From Methanobacteriota archaeon (GTDB taxonomy: Archaea; Thermoplasmatota; Poseidoniia; Poseidoniales; Poseidoniaceae): DNA of 44,664 nt. How positions within the stretch are numbered: the first letter of the stretch is position 1; every line of letters begins with the position of its first letter. Position numbers and translations under genes: made by a program. Positions 2,742 through 32,950 of this stretch are shown piece after piece. Under the pieces are notes generated by a model that was given only the letters and a program-made list of their open reading frames with translations, made no database searches and was not told the origin of the DNA. The DNA lies in contig JABJFI010000013.1 in assembly GCA_018662825.1 (NCBI GenBank), forward strand, positions 1 through 44,664, written 5' to 3'.

Positions 2742-2880
2742 AAAACATCACGGCATTCTTTATGGCCTGTCGTCTCTCCTATACTCATCCATGGAGGTCA
2801 AGGGAGTGTACAGTCTCAACCAAAACGCACGAAAGCCCGCAGCCTGTTCTCCGTACAGGCCCCGAACGAATACGCCTGGC

Positions 2881-2886
2881 GGAGGT
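2881..2886 (+). promoter_or_regulatory. Ribosome-binding site that fixes the rpa start
   Basis: GGAGGT lies 7 bases before the ATG at 2894. It makes that ATG the likely start of the RPA gene, rather than the ORF-track start at 2762. The intervening 44 residues (rich in R, T and P) do not look like RPA sequence. Confidence 0.7.
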
Positions 2887-2893
2887 CTTTGCG

Positions 2894-17483: not shown

Positions 17484-19486
17484 CCATGTCGGCCGAAATG
17501 ATGGTCGAGTGAATCCAATGGAAGTCTTAGGGCAGTAGGGCGACCATGGACACAAGCCCATGGGTTGGTGATTCGCCTCATATCCTCGACCAATCTCCGC
17601 ATTTCAGGCAAGGTTAATTTTTCATTTGCTTTTACTGCTCCTCGACAAGCATTGAGGAATGCAAGGTGATCTTTTCGTCGGTCCACAGTTTCTAGAGGCG
17701 CCCCATCTTCGGCAGTATCTTGCAACAAATCAAGGAGGAATGGGACCAATTCTTCGCCTTCAAGGAGGTGTGGTGCTGCCTCTACTACCCATCCCTGCTC
17801 TGTTTCATTAATTGTGAATCCAACTTCACTCAGGGTGTTAATGGCGGCCGACATACGTGCTGATTGGCGAGCATCAAGGTCTAATTTAATTGGTTCAAGT
17901 TTGGTTTGACTTTCCCACAGCGATTCATCGTTGCGCAATCGCTCGTATCGAATGCGCTCATGGAGTGCGTGTTGGTCAATCAGTAACAATTCTCCTTCAG
18001 CCTGCACCAAGATATATGAATCGGCGAATTGTGCTAATGGCTCCATTTCCGGCAATTCATTAACGATGCCTGTAAGAGGTTGCTCTTCGTTCGGTGAATG
18101 ACGATTCCCACAACCCGCATGACGGTGAAGCGTACGTTCGGCAGGTGAGAGTGCTGGAGCAGTCGGTTTCTCATCCATTCCAGGCAACGTTTCTTGGGCC
18201 TCAGGTGCAGTCGATTGGGGACGTTTCTTTTCAACTGATTCGGGTTCAGTGGCTTCTTTGCCGTGAAGATTTAACTGTGCGCCAGCAGCAAGAGCCCAAG
18301 CAGGAGGTACTTCGGATTTGGATTCCTTAGGTAACACCAGTGCCGGGGCACCAGCAGCTGCATCCAGTGGATTAGTAGAAGGAGTTTCAACAGTTAGATG
18401 CTCTTGAATCGAAGTCACTTTCTGAATGCCGAGCCCTTGTAGTCCAGGAATACCGCCTGCAGCATCAGGTTGTGTTGGGACAGATTCAAGTGTATGGGCG
18501 ATAGAACGTTCCAGCCGCTCAAGCACACGCCACGAATGTCTAAGGCGAACTTCACGCTTGGTTGGATGAACGTTAACATCCACTTCTTCTGGTGGCAGAG
18601 TGAGGGAAAGAACGGCAATAGGGTGCCTTCCTTGCATCAAACGGGTGCGATAACCTCTGCGTATGGCTTGTAGAAATGGGCCAGCAGCGACTGGTCTCTC
18701 GTTGATGAGAATATGGATGTCATCACCTTTACCACGAGTAATATCTGGCGTACTTATCCACCCGCTCCATCGTTCTTGACCAGGAGCCTCAGCATCACTT
18801 TGAGGAGATTGAATTTCAAGCATTGATTCAACTTGACCTCCAAGTAAGTCGAACAGTCTGTCCATCATTGATTCAGATGGAGGGATGTCGAGCATCACCC
18901 GTTCATCGATGAGTAAACGAAACCCAGTCAATTGGTGGGCCATTGCATGTGCCACGACAACATCGACAATACGGGCATTTTCAGTTGCTGGACGTCGTTG
19001 AAAAGCCAAACGGGCAGGTGTATTTCGAAACAGATGTTCAACATCGACTCGTGTACCTTTTTGCATGCCAAAAGGCTTTACTACGCCTTTTTCCCCATTT
19101 TTCATGGAAATTGATTTACCTTCTTTTCCTTCGGGTCTACTTGAAATCGAGAGGTGAGATACCATGCCAATACTAGCCAAAGCCTCACCACGAAAACCAA
19201 GTGTATGAATCGAATTCAGGTCTTCTGCTTTTTGCAATTTGGATGTAGCATGTCGGTCCAGTGCTAAGCGCAAATCCTGTTCGTCAATGCCACTGCCATC
19301 ATCCTCTATACGAATGAGGTCAAAACCACCTCGCTCAACTGTGATTACAAGGTGTGTTGCTCCAGCATCAAGGCTGTTTTCCAACAATTCTTTGACTACT
19401 TGTGCGGGTCGCTCAACAACCTCTCCAGCGGCAATATGCCCGATGGTCGTTTCATCCAGTTGCCGAATTCTGTTTGGTTCAGACAT
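17480..19486 (-). CDS. mutL: DNA mismatch repair protein MutL, endonuclease type
   Basis: 668 residues. GHKL ATPase N-terminus: ELLENSLDAGAT, EDDGSGI, ATSKL and GFRGEALASI. A Pro/Glu-rich linker covers about residues 340-480. The C-terminal domain has DQHALHERIRYE, matching the metal-binding endonuclease motif DQHA-x2-E-x4-E, together with ACRGAVKA and CVHGRPTALRL, so it is probably a nicking MutL like those of bacteria without MutH. The ATG at 19486 follows GGAGGGG at a proper distance; the track's 19501 start is a TTG within that site. It overlaps the mutS end by 8 bases. MutL of this type is rare in archaea and is normally explained by transfer from bacteria. Confidence 0.94.
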   Translation of the reverse strand: MSEPNRIRQLDETTIGHIAAGEVVERPAQVVKELLENSLDAGATHLVITVERGGFDLIRIEDDGSGIDEQDLRLALDRHATSKLQKAEDLNSIHTLGFRGEALASIGMVSHLSISSRPEGKEGKSISMKNGEKGVVKPFGMQKGTRVDVEHLFRNTPARLAFQRRPATENARIVDVVVAHAMAHQLTGFRLLIDERVMLDIPPSESMMDRLFDLLGGQVESMLEIQSPQSDAEAPGQERWSGWISTPDITRGKGDDIHILINERPVAAGPFLQAIRRGYRTRLMQGRHPIAVLSLTLPPEEVDVNVHPTKREVRLRHSWRVLERLERSIAHTLESVPTQPDAAGGIPGLQGLGIQKVTSIQEHLTVETPSTNPLDAAAGAPALVLPKESKSEVPPAWALAAGAQLNLHGKEATEPESVEKKRPQSTAPEAQETLPGMDEKPTAPALSPAERTLHRHAGCGNRHSPNEEQPLTGIVNELPEMEPLAQFADSYILVQAEGELLLIDQHALHERIRYERLRNDESLWESQTKLEPIKLDLDARQSARMSAAINTLSEVGFTINETEQGWVVEAAPHLLEGEELVPFLLDLLQDTAEDGAPLETVDRRKDHLAFLNACRGAVKANEKLTLPEMRRLVEDMRRITNPWACVHGRPTALRLPLDSLDHHFGRHG

Positions 19487-22133
19487 CTCGAGCCCCTCCA
19501 AGCAGTTGTTTTAGTCGATAGAGTGCTTCATGTGCTTGACGTGGTGAGAGTTCATCAGCATCGATATTTGAGAGATAATTGAGTGTTTCCTCCTGTTCAG
19601 AACTGAGGATAGGTGTCTGTTGCGAGGTTCCATTTTTCTGAGTAAGTGCAGCAGCAGCAAAATAGCCCATTAAACTCGATTGTCCTTGAGCCCGGGTTGA
19701 AGGTGTTCCTGATTCGCCTGCTTTGGCGCCATGGGCTTGTTGCTCAAGGAAAGCGAGAAGGTCAGTTGCTCTTTCTACTACAGGGCGAGGTAATCCCGCC
19801 AAAGCAGCAACTTGTACACCGTATGAGTCGTCACATGGGCCATCTGCAACAGTATGGAGGAATCGTAATTCCCCATCCGCCTGAGCCACTTGAACATGGA
19901 CATTGACCAATCCGTCGACTTCGCCTTCTAAACCAATCAATTGGTGATAGTGTGTGGCAAATAAGGTTCGAGAACCGATTCTATTACAGATGTCTTCGGT
20001 AACTGACCAAGCGATTGACAGGCCATCAAATGTAGATGTTCCGCGTCCAATTTCATCAAGTAATACCAAGGATTGAGGTGTTGCTCTACGAAGAATATGG
20101 GCGACTTCAATCATTTCCATCATGAAGGTTGAACGCCCACGTCGCAGATCATCACTTGCTCCAACACGAGTAAATATTCGGTCTACTAGTCCTATTCTAG
20201 CCTTCTTTGCAGGAACAAAACTACCGGTTTGTGCAAGAATCGTCAGTAGCGCAGTCGTCCGAAGATAGGTCGATTTACCACCCATGTTGGGCCCAGTAAT
20301 CAACAAGAATTTTCTATTCTTTTTCAGTTGTATGTCATTAGGGACAAAGCCAGATTGCATCTCTAGTGCTGGATGACGAGCCCCATCCGCTTTGAGATGT
20401 TCACCCTCGGTCAACTCAGGGCGAGTCCATGAACGAGAACGTGCGATGGAAGCGAAACATTGTAGGACATCGATAGCCGCCACTCGTCCAGCAATGTTTG
20501 CCAGTGCTTGGGCATGTACTCGGCAACGTTCTCGTAGTGAGGTAAATAATCGATATTCCAATTCTTTGACTTTAGTATCGGCAGTGAGGAGCAAATCATC
20601 TCTTTTGTTTAATTCTTCAGTCACGTATCTCGAGCCATTGGTCATTTGTTGCTTTCTTCGCCATTCTTCAGGAACTTTTGCTTCATTGGATTTTGTCACT
20701 TCGATAAACCATCCAATTTGCCGATTCATGCGAACCTTGAGTGAAGGAATTTCCAATTCAATTCGTAACTGAGATTCCAAATCATTGAACCATGAATGCC
20801 CAGAAGCCGAGGTTTCTCGAAGTTCGTCAATAGTAGAATCAAGTCCGGAGCGGATGAGTTTACCATCTCTAATACTCAAGGGCGGTTCATCAACCAAGGT
20901 TCGACGTATATCCTCTGCAAGGTCACTCAGTGCATCCAATTCGTGTGAAAGATGGCTTAGGAGTGGGTTTTCTGTTTCGTTACAGAGATTGATGATTGCG
21001 GGCATTCGTTCCAATGCATCTGATACAGCCAGTAAGTCGCGACCATTTGAGCGATTGTATGCTAGTTGAGTTGCCAACCTTTCCATATCTCTCAGCCCAC
21101 GAAGTGCTTCCCTCAATCCTTCAAGCCGACGAGCAGAACGAGATAGAGAACCAACCGCTTCATGTCGAGCACTTATTGCTTCAATGTTGCAAAGTGGGCG
21201 AAGAATCCATGTTTTCAACAGCCTTCGCCCCATCGATGTTCTACATGCATTCATTGTTGAAAGCAGACTGCCTTCAAATTCACCTGCAAGAGTTGATGTT
21301 AATTCTAAATTCTTCAAAGTCGTTTGATCCAAAACCAGATGACCAGACTCATCAATGACTTCGATGTCACGTAGAGGGACTTCATCAGCAATGTGCATGG
21401 TCGCTAAATAATCAGCAGCAAGGCCAGCAGCAGCTAAAGCAAGGGGTGCATCATCCAAGTCCAAATGTCCTAAATCGGCGACATTAAGCACTTTTTCCAG
21501 ACGATTACGGCGCTTTTTTTCACTGGCTCTATGCTGACTGATGAGAACACCCTCAAGGTGTGAAAAGAGAGCACATAAGGCGGTATCCTCGGCATCTTGA
21601 GGCGAAACAACAATTTCAGTAGGTCGCCAACGCATGATTTCATCTAATGCCCGAGCAAAACGGTCTTCGCCATTCAAATTTGATGCCCAAGCCTGTCCAG
21701 TAGAAGCATCGATAATTCCCAGCCCAAGTTCCGCCTTTCCAAGGGCGACTGAGACCAAAAGCGAACGTTCATCAGTGCCGAGAAGTGATTCTTCATACAA
21801 ACTTCCAGGTGTGTATACACGTGTGACGACACGTTCCAACAATTTCGCTCCTTCTCTTAGTTCCTGTTCTTGTTCAGCCACAGTGACTTTGTGCCCGGAT
21901 TTGAGCATCACACGAATATTATCCTCAAGAGCATGCCACGGGAATCCAGCCATTTGAATCGGTTTGTCAGCCTTTTTGTCACGAGAAGTCAATGCCAATC
22001 CAAGAACTTCAGAACCAACCGCGGCATCTTCATGAAATAACTCATAGAAGTCGCCCATGCGGAAGAACAGAATGGTGTCTGGGTGTTCTTTTTTGATGTC
22101 CATGAATTGGTCCATCATTCCCCTTTTTGCCAT
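19479..22133 (-). CDS. mutS: DNA mismatch repair protein MutS (MutS1 type)
   Basis: 884-residue mismatch-recognition ATPase. The N-terminal clamp carries the mismatch-probing Phe-x-Glu motif in FFRMGDFYELF near residue 28. The ATPase domain has Walker A GPNMGGKSTYLRT, Walker B LVLLDEIGRGTST and the TLFATHYHQL segment. The ATG at 22133 has GGAGTGA 8 bases upstream; the track's TTG at 22139 is less likely. It is followed by mutL with an 8-base overlap, so the pair is one operon. Domain order and length match bacterial MutS1, not the archaeal MutS2/MutS5 forms. An 8-bp inverted repeat lies in the 108-base leader. Confidence 0.95.
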   Translation of the reverse strand: MAKRGMMDQFMDIKKEHPDTILFFRMGDFYELFHEDAAVGSEVLGLALTSRDKKADKPIQMAGFPWHALEDNIRVMLKSGHKVTVAEQEQELREGAKLLERVVTRVYTPGSLYEESLLGTDERSLLVSVALGKAELGLGIIDASTGQAWASNLNGEDRFARALDEIMRWRPTEIVVSPQDAEDTALCALFSHLEGVLISQHRASEKKRRNRLEKVLNVADLGHLDLDDAPLALAAAGLAADYLATMHIADEVPLRDIEVIDESGHLVLDQTTLKNLELTSTLAGEFEGSLLSTMNACRTSMGRRLLKTWILRPLCNIEAISARHEAVGSLSRSARRLEGLREALRGLRDMERLATQLAYNRSNGRDLLAVSDALERMPAIINLCNETENPLLSHLSHELDALSDLAEDIRRTLVDEPPLSIRDGKLIRSGLDSTIDELRETSASGHSWFNDLESQLRIELEIPSLKVRMNRQIGWFIEVTKSNEAKVPEEWRRKQQMTNGSRYVTEELNKRDDLLLTADTKVKELEYRLFTSLRERCRVHAQALANIAGRVAAIDVLQCFASIARSRSWTRPELTEGEHLKADGARHPALEMQSGFVPNDIQLKKNRKFLLITGPNMGGKSTYLRTTALLTILAQTGSFVPAKKARIGLVDRIFTRVGASDDLRRGRSTFMMEMIEVAHILRRATPQSLVLLDEIGRGTSTFDGLSIAWSVTEDICNRIGSRTLFATHYHQLIGLEGEVDGLVNVHVQVAQADGELRFLHTVADGPCDDSYGVQVAALAGLPRPVVERATDLLAFLEQQAHGAKAGESGTPSTRAQGQSSLMGYFAAAALTQKNGTSQQTPILSSEQEETLNYLSNIDADELSPRQAHEALYRLKQLLGGARDV

Positions 22134-22148
22134 GCACAAATCACTCCT

Positions 22149-22241: not shown

Positions 22242-23492
22242 TTATTTATTCTGCCGCATTCTCTTGGTGGCAGTCCACAGCATCACACCCATTACAATAC
22301 TGGATGCTGTGAAAAATACGAAGTTCAAAAAACCTCTTCCACTCTCTATAGAACCAATTGCTAAAGTATCAATTGAGTATGTAGCCGGATCCCCTTGGCT
22401 ATCGATACCATGAGCATAAATGACATCACTTGAGGACCCTGAGGTTTCGATTGTCAAAGGCAAAGGACGTGCTAGAGGCATTTTCTCTGGGACTCCATCA
22501 ATCATACGAATTACAGAAGTACTTCCTTGACTTCCAAACATCCACACAGCGCCATTTCCATCAAGTGTTGCTGAAACACTGGAAACATCCACGGTTGTTG
22601 TCGTTCTATCTTTGGCTATATGGACTGCAGAATCGGAACCTGCGGCGAGTATTGTCCCATTGTCAAGTCGAATCAGTGAGTGAATATCTCCCTTGTCCAA
22701 TTCTTCAATTGATGTGAGCATTGGTGCACTTGGTCCATCAGACCAAGAGATAAAACCGATGACTGGATGTGTTGTTGGTGCAGCAGGACTGCTATCATCG
22801 GTTCCGAAAACGTTGATCATTGACCCGGCAGCAATCCAAGTTCCATCACCCAAATTTTCAACCATGTTCCAAGAAATATCGCTCGCTGAATTGGCCATTG
22901 CTGAGGTTTCAACAGAACTGGCAAAGGCATCTTGAGCTGGCAATAGCGGTGAGCCTATCGGGCCAAAGCCACGAAGACTTGTCGAGTTCGCTTCATCAGT
23001 AACCATCAGCCAGCGATAGGAGTCTTCATTGCGTTGTTCGGCTACATCGAGTATATCAAAAGATAATTGATCGTTGTTAAATGTGATACTGGTACGTTGC
23101 TGTTCGTCATTGACATGGAAAACCTGAAGTGTATTGTTCGATGGAGAAACAACCATACTTCCATCATGTAGTTTGGTCATGAAAGACATTCCTAAGATGT
23201 CATCATAATCGCTTCCAATGTCATTGATTTCACCGGATTCATTGTAGTGAATCATCATTTCACCTTCGTTGCCTAAGACAATAGCGGTATAGGTATCTGA
23301 ATTTCCATAAACAATATCCAAAACACGGCCATCCATAGCTTCGAGTCCGTGGCTTCTGTAATCGACCCCTGGAAGTGAAGAGGTACCTTGTATGGCTAGA
23401 GCACCGAGGATGATAAAAACGAAAAATCCGGCAATAGCAACCCATTGATGTTCCGATTCTTCTTCAAGAAGACTGCGCCAACCCTTCGCCAT
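22242..23492 (-). CDS. Membrane-anchored protein with a large propeller-like external domain
   Basis: 416 residues, no recognised family. A short cytoplasmic N-terminus (MAKGWRSLLEEESEHQ) is followed by a membrane helix (WVAIAGFFVFIILGALAI), about 340 residues of repeated beta-strand units with G-D-G/N-G turns (LHDGSMVVS, LGDGTWIAAG, LDNGTILAAG, LDGNGAVWMFG) typical of beta-propellers, and a second helix (FVFFTASSIVMGVMLWTA) before a basic end. The propeller is probably outside the cell. I use ATG 23492; the track's 23552 adds 20 residues. Divergent from rpl10e. Function unknown; sensing or adhesion are open possibilities. Confidence 0.6.
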   Translation of the reverse strand: MAKGWRSLLEEESEHQWVAIAGFFVFIILGALAIQGTSSLPGVDYRSHGLEAMDGRVLDIVYGNSDTYTAIVLGNEGEMMIHYNESGEINDIGSDYDDILGMSFMTKLHDGSMVVSPSNNTLQVFHVNDEQQRTSITFNNDQLSFDILDVAEQRNEDSYRWLMVTDEANSTSLRGFGPIGSPLLPAQDAFASSVETSAMANSASDISWNMVENLGDGTWIAAGSMINVFGTDDSSPAAPTTHPVIGFISWSDGPSAPMLTSIEELDKGDIHSLIRLDNGTILAAGSDSAVHIAKDRTTTTVDVSSVSATLDGNGAVWMFGSQGSTSVIRMIDGVPEKMPLARPLPLTIETSGSSSDVIYAHGIDSQGDPATYSIDTLAIGSIESGRGFLNFVFFTASSIVMGVMLWTATKRMRQNK

Positions 23493-23641
23493 GGATGCAG
23501 GATGCGAAACGAGCACATGAAACCTTTTATTGTAAGATGGCTGAAGTTTCATTTCATTATTTTTAGAAAAATAGCGGCAAAGGTTGAGGCGGAGGGATGA
23601 TAAAGGGAATATCGGTCGCAGGACTGCTTGGAGAGAGTATC

Positions 23642-24297: not shown

Positions 24298-26076
24298 ATG
24301 AGAGTCGCAGTTCTGAAAGAAGACCATTGCCAACCAAAGAAGTGTAACGATGAATGTCAAGCCTTTTGCCCACCGGTTCGCAACGGTCAAGAATGCATAA
24401 TTATGGATGAAAAGACCGGCAAGCCACATATTTCTGAAAGCCTGTGTATTGGTTGCGGTATTTGCATTAACAAATGTCCACATGATGCGTTAATCATCGA
24501 ACAATTGCCAAGTGAACTTGAGACAGACATGATCCACAGGTATTCAATGAATGGTTTCCGTTTGTTCCGTCTACCAACGCCATCGAAAGAAAGTGTTGTA
24601 GGAATCCTCGGACCAAATGGAATGGGAAAATCGACAGCCATCAATGCGCTTTCAGGTCGAATGGTTCCGAATCTTGGAGATTGGTTGAACAAAGAGGCAG
24701 ATTGGGACGACGTCATTGAATCTCTTCCACGAGGAGAATTGAGAGACTTTTTCATTTCTGTTGATAAAGGCGACATCAAGGTTGCTTTGAAACCACAAAA
24801 CGTCGACCGTTTGCCCAAGAAAATAAAGGGTACTGTACGCGAATTACTTTCGCGGGTTGACGAGAGAGGTATGTTTGATGAAATGACCAACGAATTGGCA
24901 ATTGACCATTTACTCGAGCGAACAGTTCAACAACTTTCAGGTGGAGAATTGCAACGAATGGCTATTTGTGCCACTCTGTTGCGTGATGTCGATGTGTATT
25001 TCTTCGATGAACCTTCATCTTATCTAGATATTCACGAACGTATGAGGATTGTCAGAATAATCCAAAAATTGGCGGAAACAAAACGAGTCATCGTCATTGA
25101 ACACGACCTTGCAGTTCTTGATGTTCTTGCAGATTTGGTTCATATTGTCTATGGTAAAAAGGGTGCTTTTGGAATATTCACGCCAGCACGAACAACACGC
25201 CAAGCCATCAACACTTATCTCGATGGTTTCCTACCAGAGCAAAATGTTCGTATCCGTGATAAACCAATCAAGTTCCTAAATCACAGTGACCGTATCTCTG
25301 AAATAGGCACAGAGGTAGTTTCTTGGGGCGGTCTTACAAAGAAACTTGGAGAATTCCAACTGACTACTGGAGAGGGTGCAGTGCATCGTTCCGAAGTAGT
25401 CGGAGTCGTTGGCCCGAATGGAACTGGAAAATCCACCATGATCAAAGTCCTTGCCGGAGAACATGGTTACGATGAAGGGTGGGTTACCGAAAACGCCACT
25501 ATTTCATACAAGCCTCAGCACATCGATGTCGATATGGATTGCAGTGTGCAATTATGGCTTGACAGTGAAATTGGACCCAAGTGGCGAGTTGGTGAATACA
25601 ATGTCAATGTCATCCGCGCATTAGGTGTTGACCAATTGCTTCCTAAACGCGTCAAGAAACTCTCTGGTGGTGAACGCCAAGCTGTTGCCATCGCCATCTG
25701 CCTTGGAAGAGAGGCGGACCTCTATCTGTTGGATGAGCCTTCAGCCCATCTGGATGCGAATGCTCGGATGGAGGCTGCAAAGGCGATTCGAAGGACAATG
25801 GAGGCCAATGAAAAATCCGCCTTCGTCATCGACCACGACGTCTATTTCATCGATATCGTAAGTGATTCACTCCTCGTCTTTGAAGGAGAAGGCGGTGTTC
25901 ATGGGAAAGCAGAAGGTCCGTTCAAACTTCGTGAGGGAATGAATCGTTTCCTCGAAGGCGTCAATGTCACATTCAGGCGAGACCATGATTCAAAGCGCCC
26001 AAGAATCAATAAAATGGAAAGTCGAAAAGATAGAGAACAACGAGGAATAGGAGACTACTATTCCTTTGACCATTGA
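24298..26076 (+). CDS. abce1: ABCE1 / RNase L inhibitor, ribosome-recycling ATPase
   Basis: 592-residue Fe-S ABC ATPase that splits post-termination ribosomes into subunits. The N-terminal ferredoxin-like domain has two cysteine clusters (CQPKKCNDECQAFCP and CIGCGICINKCP) for two 4Fe-4S centres. NBD1: GPNGMGKSTA, signature QLSGGELQRMA, FFDEPSSYLD. NBD2: GPNGTGKSTM, KLSGGERQAVA, LLDEPSAHLD. The ATG at 24298 stands 6 bases after AGGAGGT. Length and motif order are normal. The next gene starts 13 bases after its stop, so the tandem nuclease genes may be co-transcribed with this essential translation factor. Confidence 0.97.
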   Translation: MRVAVLKEDHCQPKKCNDECQAFCPPVRNGQECIIMDEKTGKPHISESLCIGCGICINKCPHDALIIEQLPSELETDMIHRYSMNGFRLFRLPTPSKESVVGILGPNGMGKSTAINALSGRMVPNLGDWLNKEADWDDVIESLPRGELRDFFISVDKGDIKVALKPQNVDRLPKKIKGTVRELLSRVDERGMFDEMTNELAIDHLLERTVQQLSGGELQRMAICATLLRDVDVYFFDEPSSYLDIHERMRIVRIIQKLAETKRVIVIEHDLAVLDVLADLVHIVYGKKGAFGIFTPARTTRQAINTYLDGFLPEQNVRIRDKPIKFLNHSDRISEIGTEVVSWGGLTKKLGEFQLTTGEGAVHRSEVVGVVGPNGTGKSTMIKVLAGEHGYDEGWVTENATISYKPQHIDVDMDCSVQLWLDSEIGPKWRVGEYNVNVIRALGVDQLLPKRVKKLSGGERQAVAIAICLGREADLYLLDEPSAHLDANARMEAAKAIRRTMEANEKSAFVIDHDVYFIDIVSDSLLVFEGEGGVHGKAEGPFKLREGMNRFLEGVNVTFRRDHDSKRPRINKMESRKDREQRGIGDYYSFDH

Positions 26077-26089
26077 TGAGGGTGGATGG

Positions 26090-27853
26090 ATGCCAGTAGG
26101 AATACCACCACTTGGCGGCCCATTAGGGCGTTCACGTTCACGAATTTCTGCCAGTGGATTGACGACTTTCCTTCGTTGTAAGCGTCAATGGTTTTTGGGT
26201 TCCAAAGTTGGAATTTCAGGACCCTTGCGGCCATCTCAAGTTATTGGAATTGTCCTTGAAGACGCGTTATGCGGTTTGATGATGCAACGCCCAACTACAC
26301 TAATTGAAACACTTCCAGACTTGAAAAAATGGATGCACAGTCTGATTCCTAAGGCTGCACAAGAAGCACTTGATGCCGGCAAGGAACTCTGGGATGAAGG
26401 AATTTGGTACGAGCCAGGGACCTCTTGGGAGGATGTTGAAATCGAATCCTTCACCGCTCGGCTTGAAAACGGTTTGATGCTACTTTTTGAAGAGGTCGAG
26501 TCATGTTACAAAGAAAACGGTGGCCCTTATTTGGAGTTGATGAGGGCCGGCGAATCACCGTATTCCATCCCCTCGCCGGCTTGGGGCGATGAACCATATT
26601 TCCCTGTACCCGAAAAAGTTCGAAATCATAGTATGCGGTCTTGGGCAATTCCTGAACAAGCCATGCAATGGCAACCAATTGGTACTCCAGTCTCATGGAA
26701 CGAAGCCTTGGAAATTGCGCGACCTTGGACCAAAGACCCTCGTGTTCATCAACCTCAACGATTGTTCCATCCAGAACGTTGGGCTGCAGGTGAACTTGAT
26801 CTCGTACTCCGTTGGGATGGCCAAACTCGTTTAGTCGATATCAAATCCGGCGACCCAAGTTCTAAATTTGCAGAATCCCTTCAACACCAACTGCGCTTCT
26901 ATGCTTGGCTTTGGCATGAAACCCATGATGGAGAATGCATCGATGGATTGGAAGGTTGGTATCTGAACGGACCTCACCGCATCGTCTATGATGCTCCACA
27001 AGCCGAAGAATATGGTATGATGACTTCAGAATTCTTTGCCATCAATTCCGAGATGCAAAAGATGGGCTCCGGCCCTGCTGCCATGCCAGTTCTTCCAATT
27101 GAAGCATGCGATGGAGAGGCCGCAGGTTGCCATTGGTGCAGTCTTGCTCGTGATGAAGAAGGGAATTGGTTTGGAGAAGAACTCCTCTCTGGAATCACTT
27201 CGTTACGAGAAGTACCATTGACTACGCCAAGCGAGCCTTTGTCGAAAATACCTGTTCGTGTCAGTGTTCAAGGAAAATTCACTGGAGCATGGGGGCCATT
27301 GCCGAATCATTTCGGAGAACCGGTTTTAGGGGCAATGCTTGTTGCTGGCGGGGCACAAATTACAGTTGAAGAAAGTGAACCAGGTTGTTATCCACTTCTG
27401 CATGACCAACCAAATGGTGAACTTGTCATCTTAGATGCGTTACCGGGTGTTTGGCGAGGAGCACCTCGATTATATGTTGATTCGAGAACAAGAATTGTCC
27501 CAGTTGCAGATGCTGCAAAAGAATTTGAACAAACTTCAATTCCTCTTTCACAACGAACCACTAGAATTGGTCTACTCCGTACTCGAGCCAATGTTGAGGG
27601 TGTCATTCTCAGTGTTAGGAAGCGTTCAGGAATTCGATTGGATGGAAAACCATGGACCATGCTCAATGTCCATCTTTGGGATGGTGATTCCGTGGTCGAA
27701 GTTGCCTCTTTTGGTTCAAGCATCACCGGACAAATGGAAGCACTAAGGCCTGGACAGACTCTAAAATTACTGGCGGCTGAAATCGGATGGAGGGCTGGAT
27801 TGCCTCAACTCCGAATCGATACAAGAAAAACTCGTCTTCAAGTCAAAGATTGA
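26090..27853 (+). CDS. Fe-S PD-(D/E)XK nuclease (RecB/Cas4-like) with C-terminal OB-like domains, copy 1
   Basis: 587 residues. The N-terminal half is a PDDEXK_1-type nuclease: SASGLTTFLRCKRQWFLG at the start; catalytic GELDLV (Asp237) and VDIKSG (Asp250, Lys252); then QLRFYAWLWHE, the usual QxxxY motif. Cys30, Cys340, Cys347 and Cys350 (one Cys before and three after the nuclease core) match the 4Fe-4S layout of Cas4 and AddB, although C-x6-C-x2-C is spaced differently from the common C-x2-C-x5-C. The C-terminal 200 residues are beta-rich, with an OB/RPA-like look (VEGVILSVRKRSGIRLDG). ATG 26090 after GAGGGTGG is chosen over the TTG at 26066. No helicase part is present. The next gene is a paralog, so duplication is clear. 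Confidence 0.72.
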   Translation: MPVGIPPLGGPLGRSRSRISASGLTTFLRCKRQWFLGSKVGISGPLRPSQVIGIVLEDALCGLMMQRPTTLIETLPDLKKWMHSLIPKAAQEALDAGKELWDEGIWYEPGTSWEDVEIESFTARLENGLMLLFEEVESCYKENGGPYLELMRAGESPYSIPSPAWGDEPYFPVPEKVRNHSMRSWAIPEQAMQWQPIGTPVSWNEALEIARPWTKDPRVHQPQRLFHPERWAAGELDLVLRWDGQTRLVDIKSGDPSSKFAESLQHQLRFYAWLWHETHDGECIDGLEGWYLNGPHRIVYDAPQAEEYGMMTSEFFAINSEMQKMGSGPAAMPVLPIEACDGEAAGCHWCSLARDEEGNWFGEELLSGITSLREVPLTTPSEPLSKIPVRVSVQGKFTGAWGPLPNHFGEPVLGAMLVAGGAQITVEESEPGCYPLLHDQPNGELVILDALPGVWRGAPRLYVDSRTRIVPVADAAKEFEQTSIPLSQRTTRIGLLRTRANVEGVILSVRKRSGIRLDGKPWTMLNVHLWDGDSVVEVASFGSSITGQMEALRPGQTLKLLAAEIGWRAGLPQLRIDTRKTRLQVKD

Positions 27854-27900
27854 ATTTTAGAGAGTAGGGTTCAAGAACATTCGACAAAACACTAGGTGGT

Positions 27901-29742
27901 ATGCCGGTAAGACTTGCTACTCCATCCGAAGATAATGTTGGTCCATTTAATCGACTTTCAGCAAGTCAAGTCAACACTTACAGGTCTTGCCCTCGCCTTT
28001 GGTTTTATGAAAAAGTTCGACGCTTCAAAATGCCACAAATCCCAGTACTCTTTGTCGGGAGAGCGGTTGAAGAGGCCATTTGCCGTATGTTGATGGAATC
28101 ACCAGCACTATTGGTTTCCAAAGCATCTTCAGATACACTTTCGGCAATACCACTTGATGAAAATGGTGTTCCAAGTCGTTCAAGTCTTGATCCTTGGCCA
28201 GCTGAACGTTTGTTGGCTTTACCAGAGAATATGTTGCCAACAGATATGGCAGGTCTAAAAGATTGGGCCATTGGCCGATTGAAGGTTCACCTGCATGAAG
28301 CGTTGAATTCCATGAAACGAGAATGGGAGAAAGATGAACGAAGAGCAGGTGATTGGAATTCGGTTAACCCTGATTACTGCTTACAAATGTGCATCAATGG
28401 CTTACAATTTCATTTGAACGAAGTTCAGCGCTGCCTTGACCAAAACGGTGGACCAGGGCTCAAAGAGTGGCGCAGGGGCGTACGTCCTGAGTGGCCATCA
28501 CCTGATGCCCGGCGCTATACACTTTCCAATAATCATCCACTTTCGAGAAATGGTGAAGTAAGCCTGATAGAGGCATGGGAAATTTCTCGACCTTGGTTTG
28601 TCGACCCAAATGCAGGCAAGTTTGCGATGAACGCCGTACATCCAGAGCATTGGTTCCAGGGCGAATATGATTTGGTATACCGCTGGGATGGTCGAATAAA
28701 TATCGTTGACCTAAAAGCCAGCATTGGACGTGGTGACCGCTCGGGCAATTATGTACAGCAACTCCGGATGTACGCAATGCTGTGGTGGACTACGCATGAA
28801 AAGAAACAACAAGTCGATGCACTCGAAATATGGTACCTTGGGGCAGATTCAATCAAATCAATACCTTGTCCAACAGTTCAAGAAATGACACAGATGGAAG
28901 AAGAACTCGAGTCTATGTGGCATCAACTTCGGGAAGAAACGCCTTCTCTTGCTGAATGCCCACCGGAACCCGCTCCTGTCCGTGGATATAAAGACGGGGG
29001 AATCGCTATAGAAGCGCCCAATGAAGTGCGTTGCTCCCGTTGCGATTGGGAATCGATTTGCCCTGGTGGCCAAGGCAATGATCAACTTCCAGAAGGGGGC
29101 TCAATTCAACTTCCAGGAACTTCTAACGCCTTTGACTTGACACCAATCGGGGAACTAGACCCTCGAATGACTTTCGTTGCAGAAGTGTTCAGCATTATTG
29201 GTGTTCGAAAAGGCAACCGCCCACAAATTACAGTTTCACAAGGCAATACATTTGCTAAAGTCATTCTCTTGGTTGACCAACATCAAGATGGAGAGCCTTC
29301 TTGGCCACAAAACTTGGCAAAAGGCGACCGAATAAAATTGGATAATGTCATTCCAAGTGCTAATTGGAAAGGGGAAATCGAACTCAAAGTTGACCCTCAT
29401 GCCTGTATTGTGCACACGTCAGAGGGGGATGTTGCTTCTGATTTCATGGATTTCCGTGCTCGCTGGAATGTTTCTGGTAGGCTAATTTATCGATTTGAAA
29501 AGCGAGGCGTTGGTAGAAATGGAAAAGAGTGGCACAGAAAGGGTGCTATGATATTGGATGCAACCGGTGCAATGAAAGTTGAAGGATGGGCAAACGATTG
29601 GGGCCCACAATATGATTTAGCAGAAATAGGCGATACTGTCGTTGTTGCCAACATTGGATTGGATGCTTGGGCAGTAGAAATCCGTGGTAATATTTCTCGA
29701 AATACGAAAATACACATTACTGAACGTGTAGAGAGAGATTAA
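27901..29742 (+). CDS. Fe-S PD-(D/E)XK nuclease (RecB/Cas4-like) with C-terminal OB-like domains, copy 2
   Basis: 613-residue paralog of the preceding gene. The nuclease core has RLSASQVNTYRSCPRLWFYEK at the N-terminus, GEYDLV (Asp257), VDLKAS (Asp270, Lys272) and QQLRMYAMLWW. Cys30 with Cys378, Cys381 and Cys387 (RCSRCDWESICPGG) is the canonical Cas4/AddB four-Cys Fe-S signature. The C-terminal ~220 residues hold two OB-like units (LDPRMTFVAEVFSIIGVRKG; WNVSGRLIYRFEKRG). The ATG follows AGGTGG. Known members of this superfamily cut or resect single- or double-stranded DNA ends; the fused OB folds suggest ssDNA binding. The two copies share motif order but have diverged strongly, so they may form a heterodimer. 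The stop shares bases with the convergent ubiquitin-like gene. Confidence 0.75.
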   Translation: MPVRLATPSEDNVGPFNRLSASQVNTYRSCPRLWFYEKVRRFKMPQIPVLFVGRAVEEAICRMLMESPALLVSKASSDTLSAIPLDENGVPSRSSLDPWPAERLLALPENMLPTDMAGLKDWAIGRLKVHLHEALNSMKREWEKDERRAGDWNSVNPDYCLQMCINGLQFHLNEVQRCLDQNGGPGLKEWRRGVRPEWPSPDARRYTLSNNHPLSRNGEVSLIEAWEISRPWFVDPNAGKFAMNAVHPEHWFQGEYDLVYRWDGRINIVDLKASIGRGDRSGNYVQQLRMYAMLWWTTHEKKQQVDALEIWYLGADSIKSIPCPTVQEMTQMEEELESMWHQLREETPSLAECPPEPAPVRGYKDGGIAIEAPNEVRCSRCDWESICPGGQGNDQLPEGGSIQLPGTSNAFDLTPIGELDPRMTFVAEVFSIIGVRKGNRPQITVSQGNTFAKVILLVDQHQDGEPSWPQNLAKGDRIKLDNVIPSANWKGEIELKVDPHACIVHTSEGDVASDFMDFRARWNVSGRLIYRFEKRGVGRNGKEWHRKGAMILDATGAMKVEGWANDWGPQYDLAEIGDTVVVANIGLDAWAVEIRGNISRNTKIHITERVERD

Positions 29743-29939
29743 CCGCCAGAGGAGATGGTGATGACCAAAAACTCCACCGATTGTGATAGAACGGTGGCAT
29801 GTGGCACTATTGTTCCATCATAACTTACGATAACTGTCGAAGGAAGGATATCTGCTTCAGTCAATGCTTGCCGTACAGTTTGACCGACATCGACATTGAC
29901 TTTGACATCGTGGTCACGACCTTTGAAGCGAATCTCCAT
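29739..29939 (-). CDS. Ubiquitin-like small archaeal modifier (SAMP/Urm1/ThiS-MoaD type)
   Basis: 66-residue beta-grasp protein ending in ISSGG. It begins MEIRFKGRDHDVKVNVDVG, continues with QALTEADILPSTVIVSYDG and a late VEFLVITISSGG strand. SAMP2 of Haloferax has the same length and the same layout (TVLVDGRPVPED near the middle, terminal GG). Such proteins are adenylated and thiocarboxylated by an E1-like enzyme for tRNA thiolation or attached to lysines. The track's longer ORF (start 30062) runs under tRNA-Ser, so I take ATG 29939. MoaA also occurs in the window, so a MoaD role is possible; the thio-uridine pathway is the alternative. No E1-like gene is in the window. Confidence 0.75.
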   Translation of the reverse strand: MEIRFKGRDHDVKVNVDVGQTVRQALTEADILPSTVIVSYDGTIVPHATVLSQSVEFLVITISSGG

Positions 29940-29994
29940 GCAACTCGGTGGTAACACCATGCTTATGACGGTGGCGCTAAACCGAACATCTACG

Positions 29995-30077
29995 GCCGAG
30001 ATCGCATAGCCCGGTATTGCGGTGGATTCGAAATCCACTGTCCCTGTGACGCGGGAGTTCAAATCTCTCTCTCGGCG
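29995..30077 (+). tRNA. tRNA-Ser (anticodon CGA)
   Basis: 83-base type II tRNA. Acceptor GCCGAGA pairs with TCTCGGC, discriminator G. D-arm GCA...TGC has a GG-containing loop. Anticodon stem GTGGA/TCCAC closes the loop TTCGAAA, giving anticodon CGA (reads UCG). The long variable arm contains TCCC...GGGA. T-arm GGGAG-TTCAAAT-CTCTC. No intron. CC follows the discriminator but the A of CCA is not encoded. It is transcribed away from the ubiquitin-like gene. Confidence 0.93.
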
Positions 30078-30098
30078 CCTTTCAACAGGTGCAAGGCA

Positions 30099-30103
30099 TT
30101 TTT
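30099..30103 (+). terminator. T-run after tRNA-Ser
   Basis: TTTTT, 22 bases after the tRNA end; archaeal RNA polymerase commonly stops at such runs. Confidence 0.4.
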
Positions 30104-30125
30104 AGGGGTTTGACATGTGCTCCCC

Positions 30126-30554
30126 ATGAGTGAGAGTATGCAGCCACCAGTCGATTCCTCTCCCTCGATGCAAGACAGTGTTGTTGGTGGCAATCTCCAC
30201 ACGGGTCATGTGATTCATAATCACTACCACATGCCTCAACAGCCGCCTCAACAAGCACCTGTGGTGGCTCCCCCTCAATACCAACAACCTCAAATGGCAA
30301 TGCATCAACCTCAATCAAACGTTCGGCATCCATCACATTATGCCGTGCAAGGTGGCTCTAAAGACGCATTAGTCGCTTATTTATTGTAGTTTTTCCTTGG
30401 CTTTTTGGGTGTTCATAGATTTTATTTGAACAATATTGGACTCGGAATCGTTTACCTTTTTACTTTTGGTGGCTGCGGACTTTTTTGGTTGATTGATCTC
30501 TTTTTGATACCTGATTTAGTACGTCGTTCTAACACGATATATGTGAGAAACTGA
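30126..30554 (+). pseudogene. TM2-domain membrane protein interrupted by an in-frame TAG
   Basis: The frame from ATG 30126 encodes a Pro/Gln/His-rich N-terminus, then GSKDALVAYLL, a TAG stop at 30387-30389, and continues in the same frame with FFLGFLGVHRFYL, GLGIVYLFTFGGCGLFWLIDL and a basic end to TGA at 30552. Both sides of the TAG are needed for one TM2 domain (AxLLaxFLGxxGxHRFYLG ... GxxqLlTlGGcGiWwliDl): the stop falls inside the first membrane helix. There is no frameshift. Either the gene was recently killed by one base change, the base is an assembly error, or the codon is read through. The ORF track shows only the first 87 residues. It converges with the PAC2 gene (2-base gap). Confidence 0.8.
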
Positions 30555-30556
30555 GT

Positions 30557-31312
30557 TCACATGTAGAATGCATCAGGTGATTCGGTCAATTCTCCGACAA
30601 GGTTCTCGACCTTCTCCGGCGCTAAGGCCGCTAATTTTTCAGTCAGTTTGGTTTGAATGTCACTTGGCAAAGCGATTCCCAGGTCAAACCATCCATCGAG
30701 TGCCTCAAGAAGCCGCTGTGAAGCAAAGACATCCCCACTTGAGCCAACAGTTGTTGCAATGGCGCATGCGGAATTGATATTGAACAATGGACCAATTGAA
30801 GCTATCAGTGCGGCAAGCCCAATAGCGCCAGATCTGGGCTCATCACGACGAACATCAACACCCGATGATTCCAAGTCTATTCGGTGTGCTGCATTAGATG
30901 CGACAACAAAGACTTCCTTGCGTGTAGGCGCATCCATTAGTCCTGCAAGGACATATAGAGACTTGACGCCTTGTGATTCAAGCCATTGAAGTATTTCTCG
31001 CGCCATCGTACCTTGTTGTTCTGGCTCCAACGGCTGGGATGTTCCAGTGAGAGAAAGAACACGCTTTCCTGTGACTGATTCTATAGAGGAAAGTGTGAGG
31101 TGAGGTGGTGCGAGTAAACCGTCTTCATCAAGGGTGGCCAATGGTGGTAATGCTGTGTGATGAAGCCGAGCGATTTCATGACATATGTGTGAGGTGTTAA
31201 TGCCTTCAATCGCCACTTTACCGACATTTCCTACTCCAGGAAGTGCAAAGAACAGAATGGCATGTTCACCAAGTGTAGTATGTGCTCCTCTCCACTCGAT
31301 ATGTAATCCCAT
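30557..31312 (-). CDS. PAC2-family protein (proteasome-assembly-chaperone-like)
   Basis: 251-residue COG2047-type protein, related to eukaryotic proteasome assembly chaperone 2. Family features: FALPGVGNVGKVAIEGI near the N-terminus, LSLTGTSQPLEPEQQG, LQWLESQGVKSLYVLAG, and a C-terminal helical segment (GNVFASQ-like SGDVFASQRLLEAL). ATG 31312 (MGLHIEWRGAHTTLG) is used because the track start at 31420 extends under the nop10 end. Last gene of the conserved archaeal order L44e, S27e, aIF2-alpha, Nop10, PAC2. Its molecular role in archaea is not settled. Confidence 0.85.
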   Translation of the reverse strand: MGLHIEWRGAHTTLGEHAILFFALPGVGNVGKVAIEGINTSHICHEIARLHHTALPPLATLDEDGLLAPPHLTLSSIESVTGKRVLSLTGTSQPLEPEQQGTMAREILQWLESQGVKSLYVLAGLMDAPTRKEVFVVASNAAHRIDLESSGVDVRRDEPRSGAIGLAALIASIGPLFNINSACAIATTVGSSGDVFASQRLLEALDGWFDLGIALPSDIQTKLTEKLAALAPEKVENLVGELTESPDAFYM

Positions 31313-31397
31313 ATAGGGGATATCGTCTTCCGCCGCGCTATAATGTTTGACATTCAAAACAAACAAAAAAGTTGAATTGAGAAGGTGCAGAGAAAAC

Positions 31398-31643
31398 TCA
31401 TTCCTCTTCTTGCACTGCAAGATTAGTCGCTTTCATTTCTTCAAGAGACGGTAGTGTAGCAAGATCTTTTGCCCATTTAGGGTCTTCGACGTTGTACATT
31501 TTTCTTCGTATTCCGGCTCTGTGATCTTCGGGGGACCATTTGAGAGGAGCAGCAGCTTGTGCTTTTGCTCCACAAGAAGGGCATGTTGTTGCCAAAGTCC
31601 ATGCTTCGCATTCGAGACATTGTTGTAGCAGTTGTCGCGCCAT
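31398..31643 (-). CDS. nop10: Nop10, H/ACA RNP protein, with a C-terminal extension
   Basis: 81 residues. Nop10 binds Cbf5 in the H/ACA pseudouridylation complex. The zinc ribbon C-x2-C ... C-x2-C is complete (QCLECEAWTLATTCPSCG), followed by the family's SPEDHRAGIRRKMY. Typical archaeal Nop10 ends near that point (about 60 residues); here 30 more residues (DPKWAKDLATLPSLEEMK...) end in an acidic tail. ATG 31643 after GGTGG is preferred over the GTG at 31664. It lies 39 bases after the aIF2-alpha stop. Confidence 0.88.
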   Translation of the reverse strand: MARQLLQQCLECEAWTLATTCPSCGAKAQAAAPLKWSPEDHRAGIRRKMYNVEDPKWAKDLATLPSLEEMKATNLAVQEEE

Positions 31644-31682
31644 ATTACCACCGTTGTGATTCACATTTATGAGTCGAGCCCT

Positions 31683-32468
31683 TCATTGACGGTATGAAGT
31701 GGCTTCTCCACCTGCCGAAAGAACATGGTCAAGGGTTGCTTTTGTTGCATTTTCCCAAATCGATTCTGCGGTCTTGAAGTCAGGCGCTCTCAATTCAATA
31801 CGATACTCAGGAGCGCCATTGTAGTGGCAAGTCACTTCAATTTCTTCCTCCGGTGAAGTCAATGCTTCAGCAGCAAGGAGTGCCTTTTGAATAATTTCAA
31901 CACCGTTGACATCGTTGATACTCAATGTCAGGATTCCACGAATTTCGACAAAAGCTGGAATAATGTTTTCAACGGCGATTTCGATGAAATCCTTTAGCCA
32001 TTCGCCTTCAAATCCAGCATCAACGAGAGAGCCTTCATTCATAGCCGCCTCTTCAAATGCAGTGTAAAGGCCGCCATATGCATCGATGAGTTCTTCACCC
32101 GATGTTCGGACATTCTCTTCAGTCCATCCAACCTTATCACCCAATACTTTCAGTAATTGATGAGCACGTTGTTCATTCTTCCATTCTTGTAATCGTTCAC
32201 GACGTCGTTCTTCTGATACAGATTTGAGTGAAAGTTCTAGTGAAGTCCCGTCTTTACGGGTTCGCATGACTTTACAAATCAGGCGTTGCCCTTCACGAAC
32301 ATAGACTCGAATATTCTTGACCCATCCACTGGCAATCTCGCCAATGAAAATGAAACCTTCAACACCTTCAAATTCATCGAGTTTGACATAGCAACCGTTT
32401 TGTTTGACAGTTGTTACAGAAACAACAACAAGTTCGCCTTCATTTGGCGTATTTGTAATTTCAGACAT
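31683..32468 (-). CDS. eif2a: Translation initiation factor aIF2, alpha subunit
   Basis: 261 residues; part of the heterotrimer that delivers initiator Met-tRNA to the small subunit. An N-terminal S1/OB domain (NEGELVVVSVTTVKQNGCYVKL; EGVEGFIFIGEIASGWVKNI) is followed by the helical domain (SVSEERRRERLQEWKNEQRA) and a C-terminal alpha-beta domain (EVTCHYNGAPEYRIELRAPD). The start directly abuts a GGAGGC-AGA-GCCTCC hairpin that fills the gap after rps27e. Operon position after L44e and S27e is typical of euryarchaea. Confidence 0.95.
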   Translation of the reverse strand: MSEITNTPNEGELVVVSVTTVKQNGCYVKLDEFEGVEGFIFIGEIASGWVKNIRVYVREGQRLICKVMRTRKDGTSLELSLKSVSEERRRERLQEWKNEQRAHQLLKVLGDKVGWTEENVRTSGEELIDAYGGLYTAFEEAAMNEGSLVDAGFEGEWLKDFIEIAVENIIPAFVEIRGILTLSINDVNGVEIIQKALLAAEALTSPEEEIEVTCHYNGAPEYRIELRAPDFKTAESIWENATKATLDHVLSAGGEATSYRQ

Positions 32469-32483
32469 GGAGGCTCTGCCTCC
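32469..32483 (-). promoter_or_regulatory. 15-nt hairpin masking the aIF2-alpha ribosome-binding site
   Basis: On the minus strand the whole gap between the rps27e stop (TGA) and the aIF2-alpha ATG is GGAGGC-AGA-GCCTCC: a perfect 6-bp stem with a 3-base loop. The 5' arm (with the preceding GA) is the only good Shine-Dalgarno sequence, so it would be hidden unless ribosomes finishing rps27e open it. Suggests strict translational coupling. Confidence 0.65.
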
Positions 32484-32654
32484 TCATTCAAGTGCTTCAA
32501 CAACAGTGCATCCGATTAAATCTGCTTTACCGCCAGATGGGCTAGTAAGTGTAGCTCCACAGACGCCGCAAGAGATAACAGATGTAGCTCTTGAGTAAAT
32601 TGTAGTTTCATTGCTGCAATCCTTGCAGGATACTTTGAGGAAATTTTTTGCCAT
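32484..32654 (-). CDS. rps27e: Small-subunit ribosomal protein S27e
   Basis: 56-residue zinc-ribbon protein. Four cysteines are intact: VSCKDCSNETTIYSRATSVISCGVCG (C-x2-C ... C-x2-C), followed by GATLTSPSGGKADLIGCTVVEAL, which matches the family consensus (L-x-x-P-T-G-G-K-A ... G). ATG 32654 (MAKNFLKVSC) is chosen; the track's 32705 start adds 17 residues that overlap L44e. It sits 11 bases after the L44e stop. Confidence 0.93.
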   Translation of the reverse strand: MAKNFLKVSCKDCSNETTIYSRATSVISCGVCGATLTSPSGGKADLIGCTVVEALE

Positions 32655-32665
32655 ATGTGTCCAAC

Positions 32666-32950
32666 TCACTTGTCGATTAATTCGAATTTCTTTGCACGTT
32701 GACAAGGTGCGTAATGCGCTTTGCCAGTTTCAGTGCAACGGTAAAGAATGTTGACGCGCTTGGTAGGCTTTTCACGGCCATCAGGCTTTGGACGAGGGAA
32801 ACCACGGTATCCGGCCATAACTCGGCGGAAACGTCGTTGACCCCAGCGAAGTTCAGAAGCGCGCTTCTTCTTAACTCGCTCAATTGTATGCATTGTATGC
32901 TTACCAGCCGTAGGGCTGTATCGCTTGACTTGACGTGGCATTTTCACCAT
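32666..32950 (-). CDS. rpl44e: Large-subunit ribosomal protein L44e (eL42) lacking most zinc ligands
   Basis: 94 residues, located near the ribosomal E site. Recognised by MPRQVKRYSPTAGKHTMHTIERVKKKRASELRWGQRRF, KPTKRVNILYRC and KKFELID. In most archaeal and eukaryotic L44e the zinc ligands are CPxC near residue 11 and CxxC near residue 74. Here the first pair reads SPTA and the second CTET, so three of four Cys are gone; one further Cys (APCQRAKK) is not at a ligand position. The remaining sequence is well conserved, so it is not a decayed gene. The start is ATG 32950 or the in-frame ATG 32941. First gene of the minus-strand operon. Confidence 0.92.
   Translation of the reverse strand: MVKMPRQVKRYSPTAGKHTMHTIERVKKKRASELRWGQRRFRRVMAGYRGFPRPKPDGREKPTKRVNILYRCTETGKAHYAPCQRAKKFELIDK

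Follow-up and report, generated by a model that had tools for sequence, protein, structure and literature searches.

Order-wide PD-(D/E)XK nucleases with attached RPA-type OB folds in the archaeal order Poseidoniales

We analyzed a stretch of 44,664 nucleotides from a Poseidoniaceae archaeon (assembly GCA_018662825.1, contig JABJFI010000013.1, forward strand; hereafter the window), which carries two adjoining genes, here termed A and B, whose products each join a PD-(D/E)XK nuclease of the Cas4/AddB/EXO5/Dna2 type to two C-terminal OB folds of the type found in RPA. Both look like core genes of the order Poseidoniales, were found in no other group searched, and represent a fusion of domains, spread across the order and apparently undescribed, in a nuclease class that is itself known. 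In the model that we consider best, and hold with slightly better than even confidence, A and B are vertically inherited EXO5/Cas4-like exonucleases acting on single-stranded DNA (ssDNA), with a covalently attached RPA-type grip.

RESULTS

Two diverged paralogs with conserved nuclease cores

The proteins encoded by A and B share 25% identity across their full length (E = 9e-37), indicative of paralogy, and both match the Pfam family PDDEXK_1 (PF12705) above its curated cut-off of 22 bits (46.4 bits for A and 66.2 bits for B), as did 30 of 30 relatives of B. The catalytic residues of both proteins (Table 1) are invariant among the aligned relatives, and a fold search against a viral library paired the nuclease half with RecB-family nucleases (target template modeling [TM] score up to 0.67). 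A single-sequence search of the PDB gave no useful matches; the PDB profile matches given below came from alignments.

A four-cysteine site accompanies the core, with Cys30 in both proteins and three further cysteines past the core, and it probably binds an Fe-S cluster. All four cysteines of B, as well as its catalytic motifs, were invariant in 46 of 46 sequences. Cys30 of A was found in 38/38 sequences of the family set, and the pattern of one N-terminal plus three C-terminal cysteines occurs in 10 of the 11 genera sampled from family f1 and also in genera of family f2 (f1 and f2 being the two families of the order); one A sequence, from genus g12, has no cysteine within its first 60 residues, and its chosen start codon is uncertain. 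Spacing of the C-terminal cysteines varies in A: several lineages keep the canonical C-x2-C-x5-C, and others have C-x-C-x2-C, C-x4-C-x2-C, or C-x5-C-x2-C. In genus g2, A (loci L244, 5778-7604, and L245, 7410-9242) has lost all four site cysteines, with neither Cys30 nor a C-terminal cluster motif, and retains the catalytic residues and the OB half. A fifth invariant cysteine, located in the helical insert (Cys139 of A, 26504-26506; Cys178 of B, 28432-28434), has no obvious role.

The C-terminal halves are tandem RPA-type OB folds

The AlphaFold models of both proteins are confident (Table 1) and contain two beta-rich domains C-terminal of the nuclease. Comparison with Thermoplasmatota RPA by hhalign gave probabilities of 98.8% for the C-terminal half of B and 92.6% for that of A, versus 0.2 to 0.6% for the nuclease halves, which served as negative control. 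Among solved structures, the B profile matched archaeal RPA and a Sulfolobus-type SSB (Table 1), and fold searches with the OB half returned RPA70 and other tandem-OB DNA binders, as well as the baculovirus SSB LEF-3 from the viral library. The C-terminal halves of A and B are thus two RPA-type OB folds each. Since the two OB halves also align collinearly with one another (99.1%, profile-profile), a nuclease-OB-OB ancestor was probably duplicated whole.

A first-pass annotation had described A and B as two adjoining, strongly diverged paralogs of 587 and 613 residues, each having (i) a PD-(D/E)XK core with D...D-x-K and Q-x-x-x-Y motifs; (ii) a four-cysteine layout with Cys30 in both and three cysteines past the core; and (iii) about 200 OB-like residues at the C terminus. 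All of this held up, in that the open reading frames, the family matches, and the conserved motifs and cysteines agree with it; for the C-terminal residues, profile search, profile-profile comparison, and predicted structure concur in both proteins and narrow the assignment to the RPA type. Profile comparison of the separate halves placed the OB folds C-terminally, so that the C-terminal halves did not turn out to be something other than OB folds.

Table 1. Positions in the window of genes A and B, their domains and motifs, and their usual neighbors
Feature	Position	Strand	Remarks
Gene A	26090..27853	+	587-amino-acid (aa) PD-(D/E)XK nuclease plus two OB folds; stop codon counted; PF12705 6.1e-12; AlphaFold2 (AF2) mean pLDDT 87.7
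Gene B	27901..29742	+	613-aa PD-(D/E)XK nuclease plus two OB folds; stop codon counted; PF12705 5.5e-18; AF2 mean pLDDT 90.6
A N-terminal nuclease motif, residues 14-66	26129..26287	+	Cys30 (26177-26179), first metal-site ligand; 38/38 in family set, lost in genus g2
A nuclease core, residues 201-325	26690..27064	+	D237, D250-x-K252, Q267-xxx-Y271; invariant in A alignment and in 38/38
A Cys340, Cys347, Cys350	27107..27139	+	C-terminal metal-site ligands; shifted spacing C-x6-C-x2-C; spacing varies across genera
A OB fold 1, residues 386-472	27245..27505	+	AF2 strands E391-405, 411-419, 422-428, 443-455, 458-463; RPA70 and HIN-200 fold matches
A OB fold 2, residues 490-587	27557..27850	+	AF2 strands; tandem module aligns to RPA, 92.6% probability
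B N-terminal nuclease motif, residues 14-66	27940..28098	+	Cys30 (27988-27990), first metal-site ligand; 46/46
B nuclease core, residues 221-345	28561..28935	+	GEYD257, D270-x-K272, Q287-xxx-Y291; invariant in B alignment; PDDEXK_1 and weak Cas4 TIGR00372 matches
B Cys378, Cys381, Cys387	29032..29061	+	Canonical C-x2-C-x5-C ligands; 46/46
B OB fold 1, residues 415-508	29143..29424	+	Profile matches to Sulfolobus-type SSB at 417-507; hhalign to RPA 95.2%
B OB fold 2, residues 515-613	29443..29739	+	Profile matches to archaeal RPA at 520-590, E = 2.3e-5; hhalign to RPA 96.8%
ABCE1	24298..26076	+	Ends 13 bases before A; usual, not invariable, left neighbor; link broken in genus g10 and in A-less genera
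ThiS-like, PAC2, Nop10, aIF2-alpha, S27e (LSIN-type ribosome cluster)	29739..32705	-	Usual right neighbors; Pfam and synteny

Distribution, inheritance, and unequal constraint

Restriction of the pair to the order rests on searches of Poseidoniales, marine group III, other Thermoplasmatota, viral contigs, and the best-matching public records. The A query and the B query each matched 155 of 165 Poseidoniales genomes (at least 80% completeness), 35/35 good genomes, and 22/22 genera; since each query also picks up the other gene, the counts stand for at least one copy per genome, and the presence of A or B was told apart by the matched places and their neighborhoods. On this basis, both genes adjoin in family f1 (except genus g2) and in the f2 genera g12, g14, g19, and g20. 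Seven f2 genera (g13, g15 to g18, g21, and g22) hold B without A, with one matched place per genome even when the family profile was used, genes split between contigs excepted, and A without B occurs solely in g2 (two genomes carrying the locus). The 279-aa gene next to A in g2 was considered as a shrunken B and rejected, being a DnaQ-type exonuclease (PF00929); a radical-SAM gene adjoining B in the A-less genera was likewise rejected as a remnant of A. Neither gene had a match in six genomes of marine group III, which belongs to the same class, and no relatives were confirmed in the viral contigs searched. Matches in other Thermoplasmatota resembled distant relatives at first sight but were, where resolved, almost all free RPA hitting the OB half, and the informative names among the 80 best-matching public records were all Poseidoniales or Poseidoniaceae.

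Maximum-likelihood analysis of 53 sequences placed A and B in separate clades, each with 100% support in the Shimodaira-Hasegawa-like approximate likelihood ratio test (SH-aLRT) and each holding both families; the duplication is therefore older than the last common ancestor of the order, and the genes are vertically inherited. On the B side of the tree, the seven genera without A group together (SH-aLRT 98), as would be expected if A was lost once.

Across 16 loci holding both genes, constraint is distributed unequally. In B, conservation is highest in the nuclease core (mean pairwise identity, 0.53) and the OB folds drift (0.24 [OB1] and 0.26 [OB2]). In A, the OB folds (0.44 [OB1] and 0.50 [OB2]) are conserved to the same degree as the core (0.48), and it is the metal-site region that drifts (0.22).

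Gene neighborhood

The usual gene order is L10e, ABCE1, A, and B, followed on the opposite strand by ThiS-like, PAC2, Nop10, aIF2-alpha, and S27e, these right-hand genes being of the type of the LSIN cluster described previously (PMC2643942). A survey of the neighborhood found that A and B adjoin in every examined genus holding both, with short or overlapping junctions, and given these junctions and the 13-base gap between ABCE1 and A, the two genes are probably co-transcribed. The linkage between A and B is stronger than that to ABCE1, because in genus g10 the pair has moved away from ABCE1 yet stayed together, and in the A-less genera B retains its right-hand neighbors only.

No direct-repeat (CRISPR) array was detected in the window, and no helicase or Cas family was found among the window genes scanned, a scan that left out some small open reading frames; to that extent, the first-pass annotation was right that the window lacks all three. 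The window also carries MutS/MutL (17480-22139), which it had not named, and a gene on the minus strand (22242-23552; 436 aa) that has no Pfam match and is poorly conserved (22 to 73% identity to its counterparts), yet keeps its position across family f1. In two f1 genera, a protein of 975 to 985 aa with PPDK_N and response-regulator-like domains lies directly upstream of ABCE1 (L244, 999-3956; L250, 1301-4228).

Other repair genes of the order

Free RPA is encoded in 35 of 36 Poseidoniales genomes, so the idea that A and B stand in for a missing free RPA was rejected. The copy in the window (2762-4585, plus strand; 607 aa), overlooked in the first-pass annotation, has no Pfam match and was found with a Thermoplasmatota RPA profile. 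RPA lies ~25 kb from the pair in family f1; as this was not so in an f2 genome with both on one contig, we did not take the proximity as functional. The source genome also encodes, elsewhere (L236, 231-8944; genome G000, contig C45), an AddAB-like tandem consisting of a 1253-aa protein with a C-terminal PDDEXK_1 domain and a 1651-aa protein with UvrD helicase and PDDEXK_1 domains, and large PDDEXK_1 open reading frames like these are present in other Poseidoniales. Since an AddAB-like pair and free RPA are encoded as well, A and B would constitute one end-processing component among several. A search for the Rad50 zinc hook matched only 4 of 14 controls.

Many Poseidoniales genomes, spread over the order, have a DnaQ-type exonuclease adjoining another PDDEXK_1 nuclease (~395 aa) on the opposite strand (L261 to L266; G016:C1:286859-288839); it is a homolog of this exonuclease that adjoins A in genus g2.

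DISCUSSION

Comparison with known nucleases and RPA

EXO5 shares with A and B the nuclease class, the layout of N- and C-terminal cysteine ligands, the proposed substrate (ssDNA ends), and a link to RPA, which enforces 5' to 3' resection of ssDNA by EXO5 from an open end (PMC8710748). However, EXO5 has a single nuclease domain and RPA acts in trans, whereas A and B carry the RPA-type OB folds within the nuclease polypeptide itself and come from a duplicated gene. Cas4 and solo-Cas4 proteins (TIGR00372, PF01930) have the same RecB-like core, D...D-x-K and QxxxY motifs, and one N-terminal plus three C-terminal cysteines, and the Cas4 protein Sso0001, which has a four-cysteine Fe-S site, acts as an exonuclease on ssDNA in the 5'-3' direction (PMC3466216). 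A and B differ in being about three times as long, with a large helical insert, a tandem OB half, and no Cas neighbors, and they score 13.2 and 25.3 bits against the Cas4 equivalog TIGR00372, far below its 65-bit cut-off. We found no cas1, cas2, or CRISPR association, which solo-Cas4 does not need: there are no arrays, and the neighbors are housekeeping genes. With AddB and AdnAB the pair shares the four-cysteine 'staple' round a RecB-type nuclease and the two-gene organization, but lacks any helicase or helicase-like domain (Pfam finds only the nuclease, and the remainder is OB folds), and a separate AddAB-like pair exists in the genome. The view of the first-pass annotation that A and B are not ordinary Cas4 or AddB is thus upheld. 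Dna2/Bad helicase-nucleases likewise belong to the Fe-S PD-(D/E)XK class, but A and B have two C-terminal RPA-type OB folds in place of an SF1 helicase. Finally, the tandem OB folds align with archaeal RPA (8aaj and Thermoplasmatota RPA) across both domains, but A and B hold only two of the OB folds of RPA, lack its zinc-finger region, and have a nuclease attached, with free RPA encoded in the same window. In the open-licence literature we found no description of a nuclease-RPA-type OB fusion of this kind.

Proposed function and alternatives

By analogy with EXO5 and Cas4, A and B would slide onto a free ssDNA end as exonucleases, most likely in the 5'-3' direction, and the attached OB pair, which may itself bind ssDNA, would grip the exposed strand and set loading and direction as free RPA does for human EXO5. 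B would be the chief nuclease and bear the cluster, and in its partner A the DNA-binding half would count most. The proposed place of action is the ssDNA end, during recombination or the rescue of replication forks, alongside free RPA and the AddAB-like complex. The DnaQ-type exonuclease next to A in g2 agrees with the locus having a nuclease function. More tentatively, and with clearly less than even confidence, we suggest that Poseidoniales fused an EXO5/Cas4-like nuclease to an RPA ssDNA-binding core, duplicated the fusion before their radiation, and split cutting (B) from gripping (A), which would give a self-loading resection or fork nuclease in a lineage without NurA.

An obligate heterodimer of A and B with separate strand roles, comparable to AddA/AddB or AdnA/AdnB, is possible but would surprise us. 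The active sites are intact in both proteins, the genes adjoin with short or overlapping junctions in all two-gene genera examined, including g10, and A of g2, which lives without B, has lost its cluster cysteines as if it had depended on B. Against this, the solitary B of the seven related genera and the solitary A of g2 mean that each works alone in at least one lineage, and homodimers or independent monomers fit equally well. Of the heterodimer advanced in the first-pass annotation, then, an ancient, diverged pair that always adjoins where both genes are present stands, and obligate pairing is weakened and finds no support as stated, since each gene is kept without the other in some lineages. 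The same annotation had taken the difference in cysteine spacing (C-x6-C-x2-C in A versus C-x2-C-x5-C in B) as fitting separate roles; the difference is real, but with several A lineages retaining the canonical spacing, others shifted, and one genus devoid of the ligands, it is no fixed mark of a separate role. Its term "self-contained ssDNA-binding nuclease" agrees with a nuclease core bearing an RPA-type OB half, but "self-contained" is weakened by the AddAB-like pair and free RPA of the same genome.

It is also possible, though unlikely and not favored here, that the pair is the main end-resection nuclease of the order and replaces HerA-NurA. NurA was absent from all 36 Poseidoniales genomes searched (at least 90% completeness), with control genomes giving matches; across the phylum, 43 of 150 genomes have it, among them a marine group III genome (G167) with neither A nor B, and a clear match to DUF87 (HerA-like) is confined to family f1. 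Yet the AddAB-like pair is the more obvious substitute, and other sampled Thermoplasmatota without NurA also lack A and B. We regard action on RNA or RNA-DNA hybrids, tied to the ribosome or translation, as improbable: ABCE1 and PAC2/Nop10/aIF2-alpha/S27e are conserved neighbors in most genera, and in archaea replication genes are known to lie next to the LSIN cluster (PMC2643942), but the ABCE1 linkage is broken in g10 and the A-less genera, and the matches of the OB folds are to the ssDNA-binding proteins RPA and SSB and those of the nuclease to DNA nucleases. An antiviral defense module of the solo-Cas4 or DruK kind seems very improbable, although PADLOC gave weak matches to Cas4 and DruK and solo-Cas4 has been proposed to have uncharacterized defense or repair roles (PMC5704561), because defense genes are usually patchy, whereas A and B are present order-wide, vertically inherited, and set among fixed housekeeping neighbors, with no CRISPR array in the window and no confirmed viral relatives.

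Several points weigh against the ssDNA exonuclease model itself: (i) the metal of the four-cysteine site could be Fe-S or Zn, as a related structure holds zinc instead of a cluster (PMC3466216); (ii) the cluster is dispensable in genus g2, where A persists with none of the site cysteines; (iii) the Foldseek matches cover single halves, and global TM values are low; (iv) the conserved neighbors are mainly ribosome-related and give no pointer to repair; (v) the fast drift of the OB folds of B could mean that they serve a structural purpose and do not grip DNA; and (vi) we infer both the direction of the nuclease and its substrate, DNA or RNA.

Nucleases of the EXO5/Dna2/AddB class need RPA or a helicase to load them and set their direction, and A and B appear to have the RPA part built in, which makes them compact proteins for asking how ssDNA-binding folds set nuclease polarity. 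Genus g2, whose A lacks the metal-site cysteines, offers a natural experiment on the purpose of the cluster. The pair belongs to the core gene set of highly abundant surface-ocean archaea, whose DNA repair has been little studied.

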